Source: a virus. From it: a stretch of DNA of 51,020 nucleotides. The notes under the pieces are model-generated. The model did no database searches. It saw nothing but the letters and a program-made list of their open reading frames with translations, and was not told the DNA's origin. The stretch lies in IMG/VR virus record IMGVR_UViG_3300030328_001017, positions 1-51,020 of that record; one strand, given 5' to 3'. Position 1 is the first letter of the stretch, and every line of letters starts with the position of its first letter. The position numbers and the translations under genes are program-made. Positions 2,539 to 34,700 of this stretch are shown piece after piece.

Positions 2539-4719
2539 TTATTTCATCTCCTGAGGTCCCTGTGGTCCCATCTGTGGTTGTGGCTGTTGTTGAGGTGGGC
2601 TTAGGATTTGCCTAGCTAACATAATAATCTGGTCATACCCAGGATGTTCTGGTAACTCAGCACCCTCTTTCGTTGCTTTAATTTGTAAATCTGCCCATTC
2701 TTGAAAGTGTTTATCAATTGATACTGCAAGTTGTTTAGCATTATCATCCATAGTGTTCTTAGTTTGAGCACCAGTATAAACAACGTTTGCTTCGGATAAT
2801 GCAGCTTCAGCTTCAACCTTACGTTTTTGTAATGCTTGATCTGCTTGTGCCTGTTGCTGCTGTTGTTGCATTGCTTGTGTTGCTTTTTCTTTAAACTCAT
2901 CAGTATTATAATCTACTAAGAAATCATTACTATCGATATCCATAGCTTCAATTAGTTTCGTAGCTAAGACTGCAGGAGCTTCTGGTTTAACAACTATACC
3001 TGAACCTTGTTGTGCAAGGCCAGGAAGTATCTCTGCACCAATGCGGCTATACTTTTGAATTAAAGAAGAATTAGAATTTTCACCAATATCAAGAAGTACT
3101 TCTAAATCCATAGTCGATGGTAATGTTGACATATCAATAGTCTTATACACACCGTCCATGTTGTAATTAACAGTTCCCTTAGTATTCCTACGCATTGTAG
3201 AATAAACACCAGCTAATAGGCGTTTAAAGCCTGTTTCTGCAAACCTACGAGCAATGTGTTGAATACGTTTCTGTGCTGCTGATTGGACAGCTGATAGTTT
3301 CTGTTCAGAGTTTCCAGACACATATAGCGTATCGTTAAGACCTTGAGCAGCCTTGGACATACCTGTGGCTTGTTCTTTAATAAGCTGAAGATGTTCAAGA
3401 AGTGGAACTGTACCAGTGGAAATTGTTTCTGGTGGTAACTGCGCTACTGCACCAGTGGGGTTTCCATTAGTTGGTATAATCTGTTTAGGCTTCATGTTTT
3501 GCAATGCAGAGAAGTCTACCACATTAGGATCAGCCAGTTTAGGCGAATAGTTAGTGAGGTAAGTGTTCTCTACAAAGCCACGTAGTATAGCTGTCGATGC
3601 TAATGTAGAACTACGTGTGAAGTCTGCCATAGACAATCCATAAAATTCAAATGGAATATCTATAGGGACAATTGAAGCCATAGGGATTTCATCACAATCT
3701 TCTTCGTGAAGAATATGAGATCCTGCTATAATAAAGTGTTTTAGTTCAGCAATACCATCACCATCACGATCAACACGCATCCAGCATTCTGTGACCACAA
3801 CCTCACGGTTAGCCTCAAGTGGAAGTATGTCTTGTTGCATAGATCCTTGATAGTATTCCTGTCCTGTAATCTGTTTACGTGCAGCAATATCTTGAGAGTA
3901 CTTTGTATTGCCTACCCAAGAGTCATCACCTAGTTCATCCCACTCATCAATATTATCAGCCATATCGGGATAATACTTACGGATCTCTGAACGTGTCATC
4001 TCAGTTTGCATACCTACAAAGGTAGCACTGTCGATACATGTAGCATCTCTAGAAATACGAAAGTTTTCTGGTGGGATTAATTCAATCTTAACACGAGACT
4101 TATCTATCCGTTTACGTATACGAACATCAATGTACATGAGTTGTACTTCTTGAGAAAACTCTTCTGATTGGTTTTCGTATTCTAGATTACCAACGATTTC
4201 TACATTATCGTCTGCTAAAAGCTCATCCAGGTTTGGCTGACTAATGCGCTCGTATTCTTCGAATACGTAATCGTAATCTTCAACATAAGCCCAACGACAC
4301 GTTGCGTTCTTCCATAGTAATGCTGCTTTCATCCATTGTTGGATAAGTTCCCATCCATCATTCTTTTTAAATATACAATAATTAGTTAGATCGGATGCAT
4401 CCTTAGCAGCTTGGATTGCTGCAGGAGAACTATCCCAGGGCATAAACCTAGCTAGTCTTTTATTTGTAAGAAACAAATCTGATAGAACTGCTGTGTACGC
4501 TTCGACTACTTCTGTAGTAGACGTATCTACAATCGTGCTTACTCCTTGTGGAGATAGATGGTAGTCAGCGACACCAGCATATTCATACGTAGCCTTAAGC
4601 CTTTCTCGTGCTAGTTCAGATGAATTAAGCCAATCACCCGTAGAGTTCTGAACACCAGTCTCTACCATGTTGATCAGTTGTTCATCACTAACAACTTCTT
4701 TGTAACCATCGGGGGTCAT
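2539..4719 (-). CDS. Portal (head-tail connector) protein
   Basis: 726 residues, the size of P22/phiEco32/SU10-type podovirus portals rather than the roughly 535 aa of T7 gp8. Portals form the dodecameric ring through which DNA is packaged and ejected. Visible features are a long acidic N-terminal half with Trp-rich helices, a stretch with PIDIPFEFYGLSMAD and a bundle-forming region SGNSEQKLSAVQSAAQKRIQ typical of this family, and a Gln-rich low-complexity tail at about 615-635 followed by a Pro/Gln end (QQQPQPQMGPQGPQ). The start has a GGAGG site and overlaps the upstream stop as TAATG. The SU10-like capsid gene nearby supports a portal of this class. Confidence 0.85.
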   Translation of the reverse strand: MTPDGYKEVVSDEQLINMVETGVQNSTGDWLNSSELARERLKATYEYAGVADYHLSPQGVSTIVDTSTTEVVEAYTAVLSDLFLTNKRLARFMPWDSSPAAIQAAKDASDLTNYCIFKKNDGWELIQQWMKAALLWKNATCRWAYVEDYDYVFEEYERISQPNLDELLADDNVEIVGNLEYENQSEEFSQEVQLMYIDVRIRKRIDKSRVKIELIPPENFRISRDATCIDSATFVGMQTEMTRSEIRKYYPDMADNIDEWDELGDDSWVGNTKYSQDIAARKQITGQEYYQGSMQQDILPLEANREVVVTECWMRVDRDGDGIAELKHFIIAGSHILHEEDCDEIPMASIVPIDIPFEFYGLSMADFTRSSTLASTAILRGFVENTYLTNYSPKLADPNVVDFSALQNMKPKQIIPTNGNPTGAVAQLPPETISTGTVPLLEHLQLIKEQATGMSKAAQGLNDTLYVSGNSEQKLSAVQSAAQKRIQHIARRFAETGFKRLLAGVYSTMRRNTKGTVNYNMDGVYKTIDMSTLPSTMDLEVLLDIGENSNSSLIQKYSRIGAEILPGLAQQGSGIVVKPEAPAVLATKLIEAMDIDSNDFLVDYNTDEFKEKATQAMQQQQQQAQADQALQKRKVEAEAALSEANVVYTGAQTKNTMDDNAKQLAVSIDKHFQEWADLQIKATKEGAELPEHPGYDQIIMLARQILSPPQQQPQPQMGPQGPQEMK

Positions 4720-5089: not shown

Positions 5090-5217
5090 TTCTCTTTCTC
5101 CTCTACTCTTAAGAGTTTGTTTATACTAACACGAATACTGTTAAGCCATACTATAGGGCTTTTGTATTCCTTGGGTCTTCGTTTTCGTTTTGGTTTCTGA
5201 TATGGAATATGTATCAT
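5086..5217 (-). CDS. Hypothetical basic protein, 43 aa
   Basis: Starts MIHIPYQKPKRKRRPKEYK and is strongly basic. It ends with the ATGA overlap to the next gene. It overlaps the 3' part of the DUF1289 gene in another frame, so one of the two may be shorter than drawn. The stop/start coupling favours this frame being translated. Confidence 0.5.
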   Translation of the reverse strand: MIHIPYQKPKRKRRPKEYKSPIVWLNSIRVSINKLLRVEEKEK

Positions 5218-5329
5218 TTTTTAATCCATCCAGATAGTGATTCCTTATTTGATCTATGGTACGACCACATCCAACACAATACTTTCCCATAGCATCTAAT
5301 CTGCAAACACTAACACATGGGCTATTCAT
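5141..5329 (-). CDS. DUF1289-like four-cysteine protein, 62 aa
   Basis: The N-terminus matches the DUF1289 pattern: SPCVSVCRLDAMGKYCVGCGRT, with Cys5, Cys9, Cys18 and Cys21. DUF1289 proteins are small bacterial proteins whose four cysteines probably bind a metal or Fe-S centre; their function is unsettled. The Thr/Lys-rich C-terminus (TKTKTKTQ) lies over the frame of the next gene and may be less meaningful. It sits among lysis and membrane genes, 3' of a secreted-looking protein. Uncommon cargo for a phage. Confidence 0.65.
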   Translation of the reverse strand: MNSPCVSVCRLDAMGKYCVGCGRTIDQIRNHYLDGLKNDTYSISETKTKTKTQGIQKPYSMA

Positions 5330-6353: not shown

Positions 6354-7406
6354 TTAAGCTGCTTTGGCTGGATCTGTCCCCATCCATTTTCCCCACTCCT
6401 TATAATAATGGCGCATTCCTACTTCATCATGTATAGTGTAGTTTTCATGCCGCCCGTGTAATATGTTTCTGTTCTCAGTGCCTTCACGCATTGTTGTGCC
6501 CTGACCTGCAACACCAATCAAGTCTTCATGTAGGTTCCTACCAAATGGACCCCATATGCTATTGTGGTGTTTAATTCTTGTTTCCCTGTCTTCCTTGGAA
6601 TCCGACTTAAGACCGTATCCACGAAACTCTATTAGTACTTTGTTAGGACCTAAAGGAGTTACTGTGTCTGAACGATATGCGCTACCACGGAGGTTAAAGT
6701 TGTAGCCTGGGAAGAGGTCAACCATGTACCACTGGTTTGGTGGTAGATTGGGGAACGATAACTCACCTCTGTCCTGGAATCCATCGTACTCTTCATAGTT
6801 AACAGTGAAGCTGCTAACGTTAACGTGACCGTTGTCAAAAGGAATATTCTTACGAGCAAAGTATTCATCATTAAATCCTGATACCCTGTTAAAGTAATGC
6901 ATGAAATCATGGTAAAACTCGCTGTTGGTATCGTGCCACAGCTTATAATTAGTGTCGATTATTGCTTTATGATAGTGGAACACTTCAAGTGGTTCAGCAT
7001 CAATAGCCTCTATAATACAATCAAATGCCCCGTTAAGCCATTCTTTTAAAGACTGGGTTGGGTTATCATCAAGTGTAGCCCATACCATTCCACCATATCC
7101 TACTTCACTGTGTAGTCGATTACCAGTTATAATACTTACTGGTCCTGATACACCATGAAGCCCTGTGTTTTTATACACATGAATACCATGTTTATTTCTT
7201 ATCACAGCAATTGGTGTATGTGCAATTGTTGAAGTTCGATACCAGTCATCCTGGGGTAGTTCACTTTCATGGCAAACAGGAACCCATACTTTAGAGAATA
7301 TGGCTTCTAGTTCCTGGCTGTATATATCCCAATCCGAATATATCTTAGAGTTTATGTATTCTATGTTAGGTTCTTTAACCCAATCCTTGTGATTTCTTGG
7401 TGGCAT
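6354..7406 (-). CDS. Rieske-oxygenase homologue (atypical methanesulfonate-monooxygenase-like) lacking the [2Fe-2S] ligands
   Basis: 350 residues with the fold order of a Rieske non-heme iron oxygenase alpha subunit. The N-terminal part reads SKVWVPVCHESELP, then WYRTSTIAHTPIAVIRN, as in Rieske domains. The four cluster ligands are not kept: the C-x-H site is G82-L-H84 and the C-x2-H site reads VGYGGM (V102, G105). The catalytic domain keeps NYKLWHDTNSEFYHDFMH with H166 and H170, and D295 in HEDL, the usual 2-His-1-Asp iron site (spacing H-x3-H instead of H-x4-H). Phage HMO-2011 of SAR116 was reported to carry an 'atypical methanesulfonate monooxygenase', and this is probably its relative. 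Without the Rieske cluster it cannot take electrons in the normal way. Either ATG (7409 or 7406) is possible. Confidence 0.75.
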   Translation of the reverse strand: MPPRNHKDWVKEPNIEYINSKIYSDWDIYSQELEAIFSKVWVPVCHESELPQDDWYRTSTIAHTPIAVIRNKHGIHVYKNTGLHGVSGPVSIITGNRLHSEVGYGGMVWATLDDNPTQSLKEWLNGAFDCIIEAIDAEPLEVFHYHKAIIDTNYKLWHDTNSEFYHDFMHYFNRVSGFNDEYFARKNIPFDNGHVNVSSFTVNYEEYDGFQDRGELSFPNLPPNQWYMVDLFPGYNFNLRGSAYRSDTVTPLGPNKVLIEFRGYGLKSDSKEDRETRIKHHNSIWGPFGRNLHEDLIGVAGQGTTMREGTENRNILHGRHENYTIHDEVGMRHYYKEWGKWMGTDPAKAA

Positions 7407-7612
7407 CATTTGTCCCCTTTATGTTCGTGTCCCATCCAAATTCCAAAAACACCCGTCATTACGCCCATTACTACGGACACAAAAGCTGACTGTGCTCCTG
7501 TTGGATCAGGAAGATCCATAAACCACTCAGCGCATCGCCAAGACATTACTGTACTAGCCAACATCATAAAACGAGGTAGTATCTTCCATTTGAGAAATGT
7601 TTCTACTGACAC
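7406..7612 (-). CDS. Holin-like small membrane protein, 68 aa
   Basis: Starts MSVETFLKWKILPRFMMLAS. It has two membrane segments (about 13-32 and 42-60) and a charged tail GHEHKGDK. Length, two helices and charged C-terminus are those of a small class II holin. It has an AGGAGG site. The next gene starts within its stop. A second holin candidate lies at 49603-49998. Confidence 0.6.
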   Translation of the reverse strand: MSVETFLKWKILPRFMMLASTVMSWRCAEWFMDLPDPTGAQSAFVSVVMGVMTGVFGIWMGHEHKGDK

Positions 7613-8030: not shown

Positions 8031-9683
8031 TTATAACCAATTAACCTCTGGTTGTTCTACAGTAGACATCTTTTGTTTCCATGATACATTAGATGTGTTT
8101 AATTTGTCCCAATGTGTACGTAATACTTCACAAGCAATCGCTAATGCTATTACTGAATCATCATAACAGTTAGGTGCAGCCTCTGTTTTACCAGTATCTG
8201 TAGATATATAGTCCTTTAATTCTTTTATAATCTGAACAGAAGGTATTAATAACTCTTCGTTCTCTATAAGGTTCTTAAGATTAGCAATGATAGCTGGCTT
8301 TGTAGAAGATGTAGTTCTAAACCCTAATCGTATTCCTTCCTCAGAGGATACATTAGCAATCTTTGTCTGCCTGTATAGGTTTACATATCCTGTACTGTCT
8401 AGCTTCTGAAGAGTCGCAATGCCCATAGAATTGGATTCTACAGCCAGTAAAGCGTTATTGTAGTATCTACCTAAGTAGAATAGTACATCTCCCCACATAC
8501 TAGGATCAATCTTATTGTTTCTATAATGAGCTACTACTTCATAATTTTTATTAATGACAACAGCAGCAGAATAATCCTGACCAACACCAAGAGACACATC
8601 AGCTGCAATCACATACGGGTCTGACCACGTAGGAAACTGATAGATATGTAGGGAACCTTCTTTGTTTTCATCAAACATCTTTGATGCAGGGTCCCACTCA
8701 GATCTCCTTAAACAGGATTGAGGTATCAGTGCGTCCAGACGCTCCAGGTTGAAGACGCTAGATCCTGACATAATAAACGCTTCGTCAGCGGTTGAGGGAT
8801 ACTCTTGTTTAAACTTGAGTTCTCCTCCTTCTGCAATCTTGAGTCTTCTCCAGTATAACTGTCCGTTATCAAGTTGGAATTTATCTCGTAGTTTTTCTTC
8901 TTCAAATGTCAACTCCATGTTTTCTGGAGGTTCCCTAGTGTATTCTGGTGTAATATACCACGGTAGAAAGATAGGTAGATATTCATTCTCTCCCATCTCA
9001 GCACCCTTCCAGAGCCTGTAGAACTCTCCCTGAGCACCATTAGCGGTAGACTCCAGGATTACCTCAGTGCCCTCTGCAGCAGAGATTCCCTGGAAGAGTC
9101 CCGCTAGGATCTTCTCATCATGTTGCCAGAAGGCTACCTCAGAGCAGTGTGCTATAGTCGGCGTAGTACCTCTTCCAGCTTCTGGAGACCCCGCTGTATA
9201 AAGTCTATAGGAAGCTGTAGCGTCTTTATCGCCCATAGCAGGACTGTTAATAATAATTTCTTTAGCATTACTACGTATTTCATTGGGTGCAAGGTTTCCC
9301 TCCATGTTTCTAATAAGGTTTTTGGACATAGCAAATAGAGCATCTGACGTAGCCGAATCATGCGCCATGACAACTGATCTTGCATAGGGAGTATAATAGC
9401 TTTTCCAGAAGACTCGTCCAGCGCAGTATGTAGATATCCCTTGTTGCCTAGCTTTGAGTATAATTGCTCTAACTTTACCAGTATCATTCTTTTGTTTCTC
9501 CAGTTTTTCTGTAATTATCTGTTGGGCTTTATTGAATTTAAATGGAACAAACCCCTTTGATACGTCCTTAGTAACGATCTGTATCTGTTCTTCTGCAAAC
9601 TTGGAGAAATCATCTTTGTATAGTTGTATTCTCTGTCTTCTCTGCCTTTCCCTTAGGAGTTTAGAGAGTTGTTTCTTATCCAT
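8031..9683 (-). CDS. terL: Terminase large subunit
   Basis: 550 residues with both TerL domains. The ATPase has a Walker A-like ARQQGIST at residues 78-85 (the P-loop form common in terminases), a Walker B region before an SEVAF-type segment, and the coupling motif LESTANG. The nuclease domain begins VIAADVSLGVGQDYSAAVVI near residue 360, with the metal-binding Asp. TerL cuts and pumps DNA into the procapsid through the portal. It starts 27 residues before a basic linker (RERQRRQRIQ). The TerS-like gene is not adjacent but at 18271-18675, which is unusual. Confidence 0.93.
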   Translation of the reverse strand: MDKKQLSKLLRERQRRQRIQLYKDDFSKFAEEQIQIVTKDVSKGFVPFKFNKAQQIITEKLEKQKNDTGKVRAIILKARQQGISTYCAGRVFWKSYYTPYARSVVMAHDSATSDALFAMSKNLIRNMEGNLAPNEIRSNAKEIIINSPAMGDKDATASYRLYTAGSPEAGRGTTPTIAHCSEVAFWQHDEKILAGLFQGISAAEGTEVILESTANGAQGEFYRLWKGAEMGENEYLPIFLPWYITPEYTREPPENMELTFEEEKLRDKFQLDNGQLYWRRLKIAEGGELKFKQEYPSTADEAFIMSGSSVFNLERLDALIPQSCLRRSEWDPASKMFDENKEGSLHIYQFPTWSDPYVIAADVSLGVGQDYSAAVVINKNYEVVAHYRNNKIDPSMWGDVLFYLGRYYNNALLAVESNSMGIATLQKLDSTGYVNLYRQTKIANVSSEEGIRLGFRTTSSTKPAIIANLKNLIENEELLIPSVQIIKELKDYISTDTGKTEAAPNCYDDSVIALAIACEVLRTHWDKLNTSNVSWKQKMSTVEQPEVNWL

Positions 9684-27623: not shown

Positions 27624-27671
27624 ACCCCCTACTAGTTTCCTTAATTGGATTCTAGTAGGGGTATTTTTTTT
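27624..27671. terminator. Bidirectional terminator between convergent operons
   Basis: A 10-11 bp stem (27624-27635 with 27652-27662, arms ACCCCCTACTAG and CTAGTAGGGGT) flanked by an A-run on the left and a T-run of nine on the right, so it works on both strands. It separates the plus-strand replication operon from the minus-strand virion operon. Confidence 0.9.
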
Positions 27672-30600
27672 TAGTGTGAGTAATACTGAAGTATTCTCAA
27701 GTCTGGGTTATCACTATTAAGATTAGCCATAACCTTTTTCTTTAACGCAGATTTTTTCTTTTCAGTATCTCTTATAAGACTAGAAAGATTGTCATTAATC
27801 CCTGCATGTTCTTTAAGAGCTTCTATAAATATCTTAAGATCTCCTACTGTTAGTTGTGTATCAGGTCGGATTACCAAAGGGTGTTTTGTTTCATGGGTTC
27901 CTTCACGAGTAAAACCTTTAAACCCTTTACTTACCATATATCTTTGAAAAGATCTAACAGCAGCAAATGAATCTTCAGGTGGAGGATACATAATCTCTCC
28001 TAGTTTATTATTAAAATTCAAAATCTGCCTTCCACTTTTACTTCTGTAAGTTGAAAACAAATAATCAAGCATAGCTCTATCGTTTCCTATCAATGGTTCA
28101 TTCGGATTTTTAAATCTTTCATTTAAAGATTTTGACAACCGTTCTAAAGCTAGTTGTGCTTGTTTTAAATAAGACCATTGGAAATTAATATCTATCCATG
28201 CTTTGTTTACATTATGTAATACAGCATCATATGAAGCAGCATCCATTTTAAACGCATCGTAAATAGGAAACACATAAGGTTGTTGCTGTGGGTTCTGAGA
28301 TCTAACTTTAATATTTCTCCAATATCCACCCTTATTAGAAGCCAATCTTGCTACTGTTGCAGCATCAATTGACTGGACAGGGATGGGGATTGCAGCACCC
28401 CAGGATGTCCCGCCTACTTCTTCTGTTTGATTACCTGTTACAGGATCAGTTTTAAACTTTGGAGATGCAGACGTAGCTTCTTCACCGTACACCTGTGCTT
28501 TAGGAGAAGCTTTTGCTTGATAAAATGAAGAACCACTATCCCTTACTTCCATAAGAATTCTAGGAAACTCTGTTTTCCAAATGGTATCGTCTTGAGTATG
28601 TGTTATTTCTTTTCCACGAGTTTCTTTTAACGCTGACATAGCATCAGGGTTCTGATCAAAACTTGCTTGTATAAGCTTAGTCATAAGACCAATGCTTATC
28701 TTTTTATTAACAGGAAACTTTCCCTTAATTTTTACACCTTCTTTCCAAGGCTTGTTATAAGTTTCCTCATCAAACTTACCAGACTTAAGGGTTTGATAAG
28801 CATGTTCAACTGTTTGATAAACCCTTCCTTCTTTATCCTTAAAAGGACGAAGAGCAAGGTTACTAAGTCCAGAATTTTCACCAGACCCATACCAAATATT
28901 AAACTTACCTTTTTGATTAACAAAGATCCTATATTGTGTAGCACCTTCCTGAGCACCAGTGGTCATCATACCACCCATGTTAAGCTTGGAACCAGTCGGG
29001 CCATCAATAGTAAACAAACTGTTTGTAACAGCATGTACAAATGAAACACCCCTCATAACATTACGAGACATCATGGTTTCAAAACCCAAGACTTCTCTTA
29101 ATGCGGTATCATAATGAGAATGGATTGCGTCAACTAATTGATCACGAGCAGAATATAATATTTCTTCTTGAGCCTCTTGGATTCTTTTATTGTCTTCATA
29201 GCTTCCAGTAGATGATTCCATCAATGCCAAAAGGTCGGGTTTAGAATCATCAACTTTGGTTTCAAATGCATCCACAAGTATTTTAAATTCTTCTGCTTGA
29301 GCCTTAACCTTTGGGTCAGAACTATTAACATCTACCATTGTTTTTATAATAAACTCTTCGATGTCTTTTTTAAAACCTTCAACATTCTTACCATAACCAA
29401 ATGTCATAGATGTAGTTTTGTTTAGTCCCCTATTTGAATAAACAAACTTTGCTATGTCATACAGTTCAGAGAAATCATCTTTAGAGAATCGTCCAAATTC
29501 TTCCTTTGCCAAAAGAGTTTGTAATGTGTCATCAAGAACATCACGAATATCTTTATTTTCATCAAGAAAGAAATCACTAACTCCGCTACGAAGAACACCT
29601 GTACGATAAGCAATATCTTCAATACCTAGTTGCATTCCATTAGCAGCAAGGCCGTTAGTCTTACCATCTATGTATGCATTAAAGTATGTGTGATATGGTC
29701 TACCTGCATCCATAGCGTCTTTGTAATTAGCGAAATCTACAAGACCATCAATAAAAGCTTGACCATCATCACCTTGCTTTTCAATTTCTTTTATAAGATC
29801 AGCATCAGTATTAGGATCTAATGCTAACGCTGGCATCTGTGGAAAGTTAGGATCTTGCATTGACATACCTGAAGCAATAGCATCGGCTACTTTTTCAACT
29901 TGCTCATTAGAAATTGCTTCCAAAGCAGTCCGAAGTTTTACCCCCTTTTGGTATAATAACGTTTCATTTTTTTGAAGAGCTTTTTCTCTAGCCGAAGGAA
30001 CCAAGGCATCTGCATCCTCAACTAGAGCCTGTGCGTACATCTGTCGGAGTGCTCTCTCAAACCTAGAGCCTTTTACAATTTTTGTAGGGGTAGCACTACG
30101 AGTAACAAATCGAACAGCTTTCTTAGTTGTCGGATCAAAGTTTGTTTGTTGTACAGCAATACGACCTGTTGCTCCTTGAAGATAAAACGTGAGATAGTTT
30201 GCACCCTTACGGTCTAAACAAATACCGTATAGAGATTGAGCCAAATCATTTTCAATTGCATCCATACTGTCTTGCGGATCAGGAATAATCCTATGATTTC
30301 TTGCTTCAGCAATCTTTTCCCTAGCAATAAAGTCATTCATCTTATCTTCACCGATAAAATTAATAGACCTATAAGGGTTAGACGGAGAGCTTAAGGCTAC
30401 TAATGCAGTAGAAAGTAAAATCTTAAGACGCAATGGGTCAACTACATGGGCAACTTGAGAATAGTTTCTCATGGCCTCATTTAATTCTTTAGCATGTACA
30501 CCATCACCCTTAACGTGTACTCTTGCAGTAATATTACGAACAGTTCTTCCTATTTCACCACCTAATCTTCCATCAATTGGTGGTGCTTTTAAAGGACGAA

Positions 30601-31699
30601 CATGTTCTTTAGGAAGAAATTTCTTACGAAGGGTATTACCCTGTCTAAGAAGAGAAGCACCAGTGTCGGTAACTTCAAACATTGCTTGATCACCCTGAGT
30701 GTTATTATCTGGGCTTGTCCTGTTAAGAAAAACATTTTCGCCATACTGTCTATTCATACCGTAATAGTACAACTCTTTTGCCATATCCCCAAGCAAATAT
30801 TCTTCTTCAGGAGTAAGGTCAGTATAAGAATCAGTAGGCTTTTGCTGTTGTTCATTAAGGATTCTTTGGTGTGCTCTGTGTATTTCCCTTCCAAGCCTAC
30901 GGTTTCCATCAGCTTTAGAAAAAGCACCCTCGCCTAATAGCTGATCATCTGTAACTTCATCCATGTTTTCAAATTCATTATCTGGATTTCTACCAAAGAC
31001 AGTTTGAGACAAAGCATCTTCAGTTACATATGTTAAAACCTTAGCAAACAACGGAGTTAGCCTTGGTTTTCTAGGATCATTGGATGCTCTTCCCCCATCA
31101 AGAGCGTTGGTTTTATTTAATAGAGAGTTAACATTACTGTCTTGGGATGCAGCAGCTGTAGTACCTCCAAGGTATACAGTACCTGATTCAACATCTTGGG
31201 CTAGTCTTGCAGCCCTTCCTTCAATATCACCATTTGGCATAGCACTGGAAGAACCAGCAGCATTAGGGTCTCGTGCAGCTTTATTCCATCCCCAATATGT
31301 ACCCGCTTGTGGTTGAGTACCCCTTGATGTTTGAGTCATAGGGGGTATTGTTTCATTAGGATTCGGAGGACCAAACACTTCATCATATTCAGCTATGCTT
31401 TGACCAGTATCGTACTGCGCTTGTGCAGCTTCATCCTGTTGTACATCAACTGCATCGCTTGCAAAGTCATCTAATCTGACAACCGAAGAGTCCACGGCTT
31501 CTGGAGAGTCCTCCACAGGATCTTTTGTAACAGGCGTTACAGGGTCTCCTTGTGGGGTAGTACCCTCAGGATCTTCAGAGGCTGCTGACGAGGCTGTATT
31601 CCCCGCTAACACCTCTTCAAATCCTAAAGCTAACTCTAATTGATCTGAAGGCAGTACGTTACCAGTGTCTAAACCTGATACATTAGACTTACTTGCCAT
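27671..31699 (-). CDS. N4-type virion RNA polymerase with an inserted NADAR (YbiA-like) domain
   Basis: 1342 residues from the ATG at 31699, which has AGGAGAA upstream. Polymerase motifs in order: QGATGRIAV (T/DxxGR element, R513), YIDGKTNGLAANGM (motif A, D678), R757-GLN-K761-TTSMTFG-Y769-G (motif B, the exact Rx3Kx7YG spacing of T7 and N4 enzymes), VQSIDAATVAR (like T7 HSQDGSH) and PIYDAFKMDAAS (motif C, D1148). Between B and C, residues about 925-1053 form a NADAR-family domain: WYGSGENSGLSNLALRPF (936-953), TVEHAYQTLK (963-972) and RGKEITHTQDDTIW ... ILMEVRD. The B-to-C distance is 387 residues, against 181 in T7. The N-terminal about 250 residues are Pro/Thr/Asp-rich. It lies in the virion operon, so it would be injected and transcribe early genes. 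Confidence 0.85.
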   Translation of the reverse strand: MASKSNVSGLDTGNVLPSDQLELALGFEEVLAGNTASSAASEDPEGTTPQGDPVTPVTKDPVEDSPEAVDSSVVRLDDFASDAVDVQQDEAAQAQYDTGQSIAEYDEVFGPPNPNETIPPMTQTSRGTQPQAGTYWGWNKAARDPNAAGSSSAMPNGDIEGRAARLAQDVESGTVYLGGTTAAASQDSNVNSLLNKTNALDGGRASNDPRKPRLTPLFAKVLTYVTEDALSQTVFGRNPDNEFENMDEVTDDQLLGEGAFSKADGNRRLGREIHRAHQRILNEQQQKPTDSYTDLTPEEEYLLGDMAKELYYYGMNRQYGENVFLNRTSPDNNTQGDQAMFEVTDTGASLLRQGNTLRKKFLPKEHVRPLKAPPIDGRLGGEIGRTVRNITARVHVKGDGVHAKELNEAMRNYSQVAHVVDPLRLKILLSTALVALSSPSNPYRSINFIGEDKMNDFIAREKIAEARNHRIIPDPQDSMDAIENDLAQSLYGICLDRKGANYLTFYLQGATGRIAVQQTNFDPTTKKAVRFVTRSATPTKIVKGSRFERALRQMYAQALVEDADALVPSAREKALQKNETLLYQKGVKLRTALEAISNEQVEKVADAIASGMSMQDPNFPQMPALALDPNTDADLIKEIEKQGDDGQAFIDGLVDFANYKDAMDAGRPYHTYFNAYIDGKTNGLAANGMQLGIEDIAYRTGVLRSGVSDFFLDENKDIRDVLDDTLQTLLAKEEFGRFSKDDFSELYDIAKFVYSNRGLNKTTSMTFGYGKNVEGFKKDIEEFIIKTMVDVNSSDPKVKAQAEEFKILVDAFETKVDDSKPDLLALMESSTGSYEDNKRIQEAQEEILYSARDQLVDAIHSHYDTALREVLGFETMMSRNVMRGVSFVHAVTNSLFTIDGPTGSKLNMGGMMTTGAQEGATQYRIFVNQKGKFNIWYGSGENSGLSNLALRPFKDKEGRVYQTVEHAYQTLKSGKFDEETYNKPWKEGVKIKGKFPVNKKISIGLMTKLIQASFDQNPDAMSALKETRGKEITHTQDDTIWKTEFPRILMEVRDSGSSFYQAKASPKAQVYGEEATSASPKFKTDPVTGNQTEEVGGTSWGAAIPIPVQSIDAATVARLASNKGGYWRNIKVRSQNPQQQPYVFPIYDAFKMDAASYDAVLHNVNKAWIDINFQWSYLKQAQLALERLSKSLNERFKNPNEPLIGNDRAMLDYLFSTYRSKSGRQILNFNNKLGEIMYPPPEDSFAAVRSFQRYMVSKGFKGFTREGTHETKHPLVIRPDTQLTVGDLKIFIEALKEHAGINDNLSSLIRDTEKKKSALKKKVMANLNSDNPDLRILQYYSH
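28540..28930 (-). other. NADAR domain within the virion RNA polymerase
   Basis: Residues about 925-1053. The pattern S-N-x-A-x3-PF, then EHAYQ, a helix with ISIGLMTKLIQASFDQNP, then ...TRGKEITHTQDDTIW and LMEVRD, aligns over its length with E. coli YbiA. NADAR proteins bind ADP-ribose derivatives, and members have been reported to hydrolyse ADP-ribosyl-guanine and act as DarT1 antitoxins. The conserved Glu965/His966 pair is present. Activity in this setting is inferred. Confidence 0.8.
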
Positions 31700-31700
31700 A

Positions 31701-34700
31701 TTATTCTCCTTTATAATTCCAAGATTCTGGTATGAAATCTCCAACCCTTGAGAATCCACCAGTAACACCAAGGGCAGGTATCAACCTACTACCTTCTTGT
31801 GCACCACCAGCAAAGTCTCCTGTTGCTGTTTTACCCATTGCTCTACCAATACGTTTTAGTGTACCAGTAGCGGGTGCTTCACCTGTTGTCGTATTCCATA
31901 TCCATTCTCCAGCATTACCAGAACGTTGTTCATATATGGGGAAGAACTGATCAAGCACACGCTCACCAACACCAAGTAAACCTGATGATCGTATACCACG
32001 TTGGATATACTCTTCGGTTTCTAGGTGTGGGTTCTTACCTGTCTTGTACTCATCTTCGTCTAACCCACCATACTTAATAAGATCCTTTAGATACTGAGAG
32101 GCAAAGCCCATCATTATCATAGTACACATTAGAGCAAATGCATTGTACTTCATTGATGGAGTACCACGTTTGACATATTCACCCCATAGTTTAGGGATAT
32201 GGTTTGCTGTGAATGTTGCAATGAATCCTTGAAACTGTGTGAACAAGAAGAACCTTGGGTCTTGATAAATCAATGGCCTGTTGGCTATTCCTGGTAGTGC
32301 TACAGCATCATCGATAAAATTCATAGAGCCTATTCTTAAGTTGCTCATCATTAAATCTTCATCAGCTTTTATTTGTGCATCTGTTCTCTCATCAATACCA
32401 GTAGCTTCTCTGTTTCTAGATTCTATTTGTATCCTTACTGCGTCATCGACATTTATTCCAATGTTTCGTAAGGCTTCTTCTGATTCTTGAACCTCATTAG
32501 TTTTAGGATCACCACTTGTTCTTTGGTCAGTAACAATATTAATATGATCGAAAATATAATCAGCTGATATTGATGCTCTCATAGATCTGGTCATGTTAGT
32601 AAAACCAGTTAGCCCAGTAGCCTTAAAGAATATTTCATAGAACCTTTGATGTGATGGGTTCATTTCTGAAACACCAGTAACTGTAGCAGCACCTAGTTCC
32701 CATGCATCATATCCTAATTCTTTTCTCCAAGCTTGACCCCTAGATCTACTTGCTATAGGTAAACCTGTAGAAGGATCTATATTTCCTAGCTTCTCTTCTC
32801 TACGTGTTATAACAGAACCAGTTTCTTTTATACCAGAACTTATAGCCTTAGCTAGTTCTTGACCAAAGGATTGAAGACTTGTTTTATCAGAATCTTTTCC
32901 TTTCCTTTTAAAGATTTGTTCTGCAGTTAAAGCACGAGAAGACAATGCAAGTTCTGGAAGAGATGACACAGCAGCCATGCCTAGTGTTCCAATAGTTGTA
33001 AGGAACATAAGGTTTTTCTGGATACCCATAAGCATCTTACCCATGTCGGATGTCGGACGTTTATAGTTTCCAGATTCAGCATTAAGATAGTTTCTTAAAC
33101 CAACAGCAATTTTATTTACTTCTTCTGCAGGTACACCTTCAGCTTGCATCTTGTCTAAATAGTAAGCAATTATCTCACCATTCTTACCAATGTAATCTCT
33201 ATGTGCTGTAAACCTAGCAGCAGATTTAATAGAGTGTTGTATGTTCTTATAGATATCCCGCTGCATAAACTTTTCAAATACAAATTTACCATCAGCGCCT
33301 TTCTTTTCAGACATCCCAAGAGTGTTGGCTCTGTGAGATCCAGGAACAATACCACCTTTGGTGACATCAAACCCAGTGTTTAAATCAACACCAACAGCTG
33401 CTCCTGCTTCTTCTATATCGCTAATAGTATCCGAATATAATATCTGATCAACCAATTGTTTAGCAATTGATGGAGTAATTTTTGGATAGGTAGCAACTAA
33501 CAAAGCCTCAAACTCATTACGGTTTTTTTGAACAGCAACTTTATCTAGAGTCTTATATCTATGAAGGTAGTTTTTACGTTTTCCAAGATCTCCACCAGCT
33601 TTTACTTGATCGTTATACATAGCATCTGCTGTTTGATTCATTTGTACAGCAAGTGCTTTTATAGCATCAGCTTGTAATTTATTAAGACTTGTTGTATCTA
33701 AAAGATTAGGATCATAATTACCATCACTATCTACGGCTGCTTGAAGTCGTTTATAAATATCATCACTAAGAGTATCTATTTCCTTTTGACTTAACACTCT
33801 ACCATTTCCCATGATGTTATAAAAATCATCAGGGTTTTGTAACATGTTCCTGTATATAGAAACACGATCACGTTTAGCCATTTCAAAATCAGCACCGCTA
33901 AATACTTTTTGAAGACCACCACCAAGACTTGCTGCTAGCTTTCTAGCTGATGAAGACATCCTCTTAACTTCAGCAGGTATTATATAATCGATAGATCTTC
34001 TCCAAAGGGCTGGAGCAGACGCAAACATGTCACCAATTGTCTCACCAATGGTTCTATCCTTGAGTCTCTTTTTATCTGCTTCTCCTCTTAAGTCAATATC
34101 TGTCGGAGCAAAGTTTGTATTTTGTTTCTTTTTTTCATCTAATTCTTTTTTAATCTCTGCAATGTTTTCTTCATTAGATGTTACACGAGAGTTTGCAGGG
34201 TCTGATCTTGCTTTTTCACCTGCTTCTTTAGCAATCCTATCTATGTCTTGTGCTATATAATAGTCTAAACTTCCAGCAATAAACCTATTAGGACTAGATG
34301 GATCATACCCTTCATCTTTAGCTCTTCTATATTCTTCTGCACCTTTGGCCTTTTTATAAGCTTTATTATAAGCTATCTGACCGTTCCGAGTACGCTCTGC
34401 TTCAGCTTGTGCTCCCTCTTCAGAAAGACGTTTAGCTTCTGCAGGTAACTGACGTACTGCTACATCAGCCCAAGCACCAGCATTAACTGCTGCCCCAGGA
34501 ACTGCAAAGGTAGTACCTAAAGCAGTACCAGCTACTGCAGCCTGAACAATCCGATTGTTAAGTTCGTTATAGTCAAAGACCTTATCAGAACCAAGGGTTG
34601 CTCCGAGGTATGCAGTGGCTTCTTGCATAGCTTCTGTTGAACCCTCACCAACACCACCGATTAACCCTCGTGTTGCAAGGTCCCTAAAGATAGCCTTGGC

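Follow-up and report, generated by a model that had tools for sequence, protein, structure and literature searches.

The question raised by this locus is how a viral member of the Rieske oxygenase family could act when its product alone lacks the [2Fe-2S] cluster from which ordinary members of the family supply electrons to the iron. Viral copies of such genes, named 'msmA', are classed as auxiliary genes of sulfur or organosulfur metabolism in those parts of the virome literature that were consulted. The window, meaning the whole stretch of DNA analysed, is a virus record of 51,020 bases, in which the portal (2539-4719) and terminase (8031-9683) genes of a head and packaging region surround the oxygenase gene, and in which a DNA polymerase, a DnaB-type helicase, MazG and an RNA polymerase are encoded elsewhere. 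A 1366-aa ORF at 27671-31771 (minus strand) has a weak match to NADAR that falls below the cut-off (E = 0.0013). In an ORF check of the window, 6354-7409 (minus strand) is an intact frame with ATG codons at both 7409 and 7406; the latter is most likely the start codon, since relatives begin with MPPRNH. The gene (6354-7406, minus strand) therefore encodes a protein of 350 aa (P0001), assigned by its ORF, Pfam matches, alignment and fold model to the alpha subunits of MsmA-type oxygenases, but of a Rieske-less form. It matches Pfam Ring_hydroxyl_A (PF00848; E = 8.5e-8) over residues 140-343, whereas its match to the Rieske model extends over just the first half of that model and does not reach the cut-off (E = 0.0011). 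No PHROGs family matches the oxygenase protein. A small ORF that overlaps its start (7406-7612, minus strand) has a PHROGs match to phrog_10198, of no known function, and a similar ORF is present in 148 of 340 viral loci, a redundant set.

The initial annotation had described a Rieske oxygenase homologue deprived of its [2Fe-2S] centre, and this description stands, the Rieske ligands being absent from all 146 unique complete viral relatives. Conservation was assessed in 230 viral, 27 short bacterial (host) and 63 full-length sequences, reduced to 146, 16 and 63 once duplicates and fragments under 300 aa were dropped, with three loci set aside (including L082, which is the window itself); the viral class, here and in the tree, includes L097 and L098, both fetched as bacterial MAG contigs. 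The loss had been explained by substitution, with C-x-H / C-x2-H becoming G-x-H / V-x2-G at G82, H84, V102 and G105. Alignment to full-length MsmA rules this out and points instead to the excision of a block of approximately 41-51 residues that holds all four ligands. Against the 63 full-length MsmAs, the columns of the first-loop Cys and His are gaps in every viral (146/146) and host short (16/16) row, and those of the second-loop Cys and His are gapped in 139 and 140 of the 146 viral rows, respectively. The span from E49 to E101 covers 52-62 residues in viral proteins and 53 in host short proteins, compared with 103 in all 63 full-length MsmAs. Because the ligand columns are gapped and the segment is shortened, the Rieske loops are excised rather than mutated, in the phage protein and in the host short protein. 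V102 and G105 were never ligands: both fall on the downstream side of the excision, and neither they nor G106 vary across 17 aligned rows, some of them proteins whose Rieske site is intact; H84 is poorly conserved (His in 17 of the 146 viral rows). What is left of the Rieske domain (residues 48-100; 7107-7265, minus strand) is a fast-evolving remnant in which the beta scaffold is kept and both ligand loops are missing, as delimited by gap columns, segment lengths, alignment and a dN/dS of 0.182. Rieske ligands in the same chain, one of the marks of a Rieske oxygenase alpha subunit, are thus lacking from the viral protein.

The mononuclear iron site had been reported as intact, and the wider alignment confirms it: H166, H170 and D295 are invariant in 146/146 viral, 16/16 host short and 63/63 full-length proteins. 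The two His ligands (6897-6911) lie in EFYHDFMH and the Asp (6522-6524) in LHEDL, both on the minus strand. Near the iron site, E163 (6918-6920, minus strand), H293 and E294 are invariant too (225/225 proteins); E163 stands where other Rieske oxygenases have the Asp that bridges the Rieske centre and the iron. The spacing of the His ligands, H-x3-H in MsmA-type proteins including that of the phage and H-x4-H in terephthalate dioxygenase, is a trait of the family and not an oddity of the phage. An AlphaFold2 model of the window protein built on a 75-row alignment reached a pLDDT of 87.5 and a pTM of 0.88 (31 close relatives alone gave a pLDDT of 47). Its overlay on terephthalate dioxygenase 7q06 gave Z 33.7 and an rmsd of 2.9 over 325 residues, so that the alpha-subunit fold is predicted to be kept. 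A 2-His-1-carboxylate iron site on the catalytic fold of Rieske oxygenases, as in an alpha subunit, is thus present in the viral protein, although a shared fold, here a modelled one, by itself proves no function. The catalytic domain (residues 101-343; 6378-7106, minus strand) is nearly frozen in viruses, as judged by identity and dN/dS. Its HYHK..GMRHY block is 84% identical to that of a full-length MsmA (L107), and identities to the best full-length MsmA are 84% for the window, 85% for HMO-2011 and 86% for the host short protein, within a span of 80-86% in the five phage and host short proteins compared. Both the MsmA-type catalytic block and the EFYHD iron motif, by which MsmA is recognized, are thus found in the viral protein. 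Across 332 viral pairs with moderate dS (Nei-Gojobori), median dN/dS was 0.039 for the catalytic region, 0.182 for what remains of the Rieske domain and 0.068 for the N-terminus; no such loosening of the Rieske region is seen in full-length MsmA, where it has a value of 0.114 and the catalytic region one of 0.167. Such ratios indicate that selection preserves the viral protein for its active site, whereas the former Rieske half is drifting.

A candidate for the missing half was found in bacteria. Among bacterial genomes, where the best 80 of 158 relatives were kept, the relatives consist of full-length MsmAs (409-433 aa, with CxH-X26-CxxH) and of phage-like short forms, mostly from SAR116. The host short subunit (approximately 362 aa) has the iron site and no Rieske site, and upstream of it, in 10 loci, lies an ORF of approximately 800 aa with a Rieske motif and a reductase but no iron site, hereafter the partner. 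The iron motif occurs in 63/63 full-length, 17/17 host short and 82/83 viral sequences (the exception, L071, is a broken frame of 61 aa) and in 0/10 partners, which lack both the iron helix and LHEDL. Conversely, the Rieske motif occurs in 62/63 full-length sequences (the exception has an X), 10/10 partners, 0/17 short forms and 0/83 viral rows, in which the window is counted twice (as L082); its long-spacer form, CxH-X26-CxxH, which serves to define MsmA in the sections consulted of an earlier study (PMC4433239), is likewise in 62/63 full-length and 0/83 viral sequences. The Rieske region of the partner is 73-77% identical to the best full-length MsmA (four partners listed), compared with 29-37% for its catalytic remnant (five listed), and the catalytic block of the phage and host short forms is at most 39% identical to the partner. 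Read from these motifs and identities, the SAR116-type MsmA is split into two reciprocally decayed chains, each of which keeps one metal centre. The excision, the Rieske-less copy of the host and this reciprocally decayed partner had all been overlooked by the initial annotation.

In the SAR116 operon L083, divergent msmE/msmF genes are followed by the partner, msmB, msmC, a 279-aa ORF, the short msmA, a LysR gene, TauE (a sulfite exporter) and formate-THF ligase (FTHFS). Domains called on the partner of this locus show a fusion to a GR-type FAD/NAD reductase (Pyr_redox_2, PF07992; Reductase_C, PF14759). Filomicrobium L109 has a canonical msmABCD, and the type of reductase differs between the two, being an FNR-type MsmD (Fer2+FAD+NAD; L109:10477-11571) in the latter and the GR-type fused to the Rieske partner (L083:3342-5729) in SAR116. 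The 279-aa ORF (L083:6953-7789), located between msmC and the short msmA, has no Pfam family and no PDB relative below E 0.4; a related ORF accompanies the full-length MsmA gene in 11 of 63 loci, and it may be an unnamed msm accessory. The phage protein is approximately 72-76% identical to the host short subunit, shares its excision and is its orthologue. It belongs with the short subunits of split methanesulfonate monooxygenase, a class defined here by a retained iron motif, an excised Rieske block, a length of approximately 347-372 aa and grouping with the short subunits of SAR116.

Viruses appear to carry this half and not the other. IMG/VR holds at least 599 viral relatives, which bears out the earlier expectation of a family widespread in ocean phages and related to the 'MsmA' of HMO-2011; the latter was the only close relative among 50,697 phage records, where weak Acinetobacter matches proved by annotation to be ordinary oxygenases. 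The viral gene sits in the structural-gene region. Two observations had been named in advance as speaking against the initial reading, namely viral relatives with intact Rieske ligands and a loss of the iron triad in most of them: no Rieske-bearing relative was found among the 146 unique complete proteins or among 119 loci sampled by an iron-motif pattern, and the triad is kept in 146/146. In those 119 loci, no Rieske motif lies upstream of the iron motif; 13 of them lack HEDL, 12 because the ORF runs off the contig end and one (L407) because it ends in a stop. A query with full-length MsmA gave only short forms among the 80 viral relatives kept, and queries with the partner, including its Rieske peptide CMFHAWQF, gave none. 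This peptide occurs in 10/10 partners and 45/63 full-length MsmAs, so that by itself it could miss about a quarter of full-length forms, a gap covered by the iron-motif pattern. A Rieske regular expression run over all frames of the viral loci gave 72 matches, of which the 25 listed are short frames (up to 218 aa) unlike any Rieske domain and were set aside as noise. No msmB, msmC, reductase, 279-aa ORF, TauE or FTHFS was found in 340 viral loci (2.81 Mb), a redundant set in which some contigs were fetched more than once; since most of these loci are fragments whose flanks are of limited extent, a partner gene located farther away could have escaped notice. The msmB, msmC and reductase genes that accompany an MsmA gene are thus missing from viral loci within their flanks and present beside the host orthologue. 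Annotations of the HMO-2011 genome include no ferredoxin and no ferredoxin reductase.

Of the 61 genomes of one SAR116 family, 12 contain the short subunit, and these same 12 also contain the partner, which is fragmented in G035 and has a frame break in G036; as members of a single operon, seen in related genomes, the two genes do not constitute independent evidence. Every match in the 61 genomes was either a short subunit or a partner, and none was a full-length MsmA. The pair is not adjacent in two SAR116 genomes, where the genes are 11-12 kb apart, and G033, of the same family, has two copies of each. G025, a single contig of 2,753,527 bases that probably corresponds to IMCC1322, host of phage HMO-2011, holds a split operon with short subunit and partner. 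As reported in the consulted sections of a 2015 study, IMCC1322 has two MsmA-annotated proteins, only one of which has the Rieske motif, and this motif is absent from the HMO-2011 protein and from many virome sequences (PMC4433239). Four MAG contigs (L092, L096, L097 and L098), whose labels are Planktomarina, Marinovum, Hellea and Rickettsiales, carry SAR116-like or viral copies, and these labels probably reflect misbinning; L097 groups with viral rows.

Trees were built from subsets of 62, 75 and 59 rows. When rooted on full-length MsmA, the short and viral forms make up one group (100/98), in which a viral pair branches first and SAR116 copies fall inside viral diversity at two places, L095 and L247 adjoining the viral L172 (98/97). 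The Rieske region of the partner nests among Hyphomicrobiaceae-like full-length MsmAs (97/81). Viral monophyly was recovered in 0/200 bootstrap trees but was not rejected by the AU test (p = 0.11). On the direction of transfer, GC3 gave no useful signal (0.49 in the host short gene, 0.40-0.48 in other genes of the locus). The tree thus allows, without showing, a phage origin of the host catalytic subunit. A tentative and, to our mind, rather doubtful scenario is that the Rieske-less subunit arose in phages, passed to SAR116 and took over catalysis, after which the resident MsmA lost its iron site and became a Rieske-reductase subunit. If true, a host metabolic enzyme would have an active site of phage origin, interchangeable with that of the phage.

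Electron transfer in Rieske oxygenases crosses a subunit boundary, the donor being the Rieske cluster of one chain and the acceptor the iron of another, according to the part of the source consulted (PMC12445004), and iron-only and Rieske-only chains can therefore share the work. We consider it probable, though well short of assured, that the viral product is the catalytic half of a methanesulfonate monooxygenase divided between two chains, and that it works with a Rieske-reductase half of the host. The evidence, all of it drawn from sequence, consists of the excision, the conserved triad, the reciprocal loss, the co-occurrence in hosts, the absence of partner genes from viral loci and purifying selection. 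In the infected cell, the phage short subunit would most likely assemble with the host long chain, MsmB and MsmC, replacing or adding to the host short subunit in the complex. Electrons would then run from NAD(P)H through the reductase domain, the MsmC ferredoxin and the partner Rieske centre to the phage iron, and methanesulfonate would presumably be oxidised to formaldehyde and sulfite. Hosts of the window virus are expected to carry the Rieske partner. Two points count against this proposal: SAR116 hosts already own a short subunit, which leaves the gain for the phage to be explained, and the terL and portal of the window virus resemble those of a Roseobacter phage, not of HMO-2011.

The data agree best with one of the four roles initially suggested, that of an oxygenase supplied by a different donor, and this donor need not be the host partner. 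The viral protein, whose active site is intact and strongly selected, could act as a stand-alone oxygenase reduced by host ferredoxin, by a Cys-rich phage protein or through a peroxide shunt. A DUF1289 Cys-rich gene (5141-5329, minus strand; E = 6.5e-11) lies approximately 1 kb downstream of the oxygenase gene, which makes another donor possible; its product is possibly a metal protein, and we know of no DUF1289 protein that serves as an electron donor. A DUF1289-like motif is present in 45 of the 340 redundant viral loci but was not found in the other 295, and the host orthologue shares its operon with a dedicated Rieske-reductase partner and a ferredoxin, which makes independence from a Rieske partner decidedly unlikely. 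It is also conceivable that the same split enzyme, with the same partner, acts on another short sulfonate or methyl compound, or draws otherwise on host carbon or sulfur. The literature examined holds no measured substrate for the split form, and split and full forms differ consistently at M107, S198, D212, Y244 and Y264. However, the 80-86% identity of the catalytic block to full-length MsmA in the five proteins compared, together with the neighbouring msmEF, TauE and FTHFS, points to methanesulfonate, and a different substrate or use seems unlikely.

The regulator and dominant-negative roles also suggested at first fit the data less well. A dead-end subunit that displaces the host catalytic subunit and shuts off methanesulfonate use, or a sensor of the substrate, would agree with the lack of a Rieske centre in the phage chain, which precludes solo work by the ordinary mechanism, and with the lack of obvious partners in HMO-2011 by annotation. 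Yet a blocker would need no active site, whereas this protein shows no variation at its iron ligands or the residues around them, and its lowest dN/dS (0.039) is that of the catalytic block. Moreover, the same Rieske-less subunit sits inside a complete host msm operon, and the only iron-bearing MsmA of these hosts is of this very form. Inhibition or sensing is thus highly improbable.

Compared with known systems, the phage protein is closest to MsmA of Filomicrobium, Methylobacterium and others in its catalytic block, EFYHD-[FY]-[MLV]-H and LHEDL, but MsmA has CxH-X26-CxxH in the same chain and the phage chain lacks the whole block. The SAR116 pair of short MsmA and Rieske-reductase fusion (the short chain being the second MsmA of IMCC1322 and like the HMO-2011 'MsmA') has the same excision, but the virus has the short subunit only, with no partner, msmB or msmC. 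Two precedents exist for a divided Rieske oxygenase. In the caffeine N7-demethylase NdmC/NdmD/NdmE, the Rieske domain of NdmC sits on NdmD (PMC4408171, consulted in part). The likeness to the phage protein is one of arrangement, drawn by analogy; a GST-like helper, NdmE, is reported as required there and no such protein was recognized in the msm case, and the SAR116 fusion, unlike Ndm, has a GR-type FAD reductase attached to its Rieske domain and the remnant of its catalytic domain. Micromonas divides its chlorophyllide a oxygenase as well, with the Rieske centre on one chain and the iron on the other. This two-chain enzyme of M. pusilla (PMC9615114, likewise consulted in part) is an algal, non-viral pigment enzyme from another branch of the family. 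Split Rieske oxygenases are therefore already known, and the variant in which a phage carries one of two reciprocally decayed halves appears to be new. The missing motif of HMO-2011 has been known since 2015; the present analysis adds the excision, the partner with its reciprocal decay, its co-occurrence with the short subunit and the distribution among viruses. No description of the reciprocal split was found in the open literature on HMO-2011, SAR116 and msmA, covered as titles and abstract openings and as parts of PMC4433239 and PMC5068391.

Altogether, the two MsmA copies, with one metal centre each, provide a natural experiment on electron transfer between subunits. With an enzyme split in this way, the host offers a partner to the viral gene, and the claim is directly testable with three host genes. 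Many ocean viruses carry only the catalytic half, and the hosts of some build the enzyme in two matching halves, so that the viral half probably plugs into the electron-supplying half of the host.
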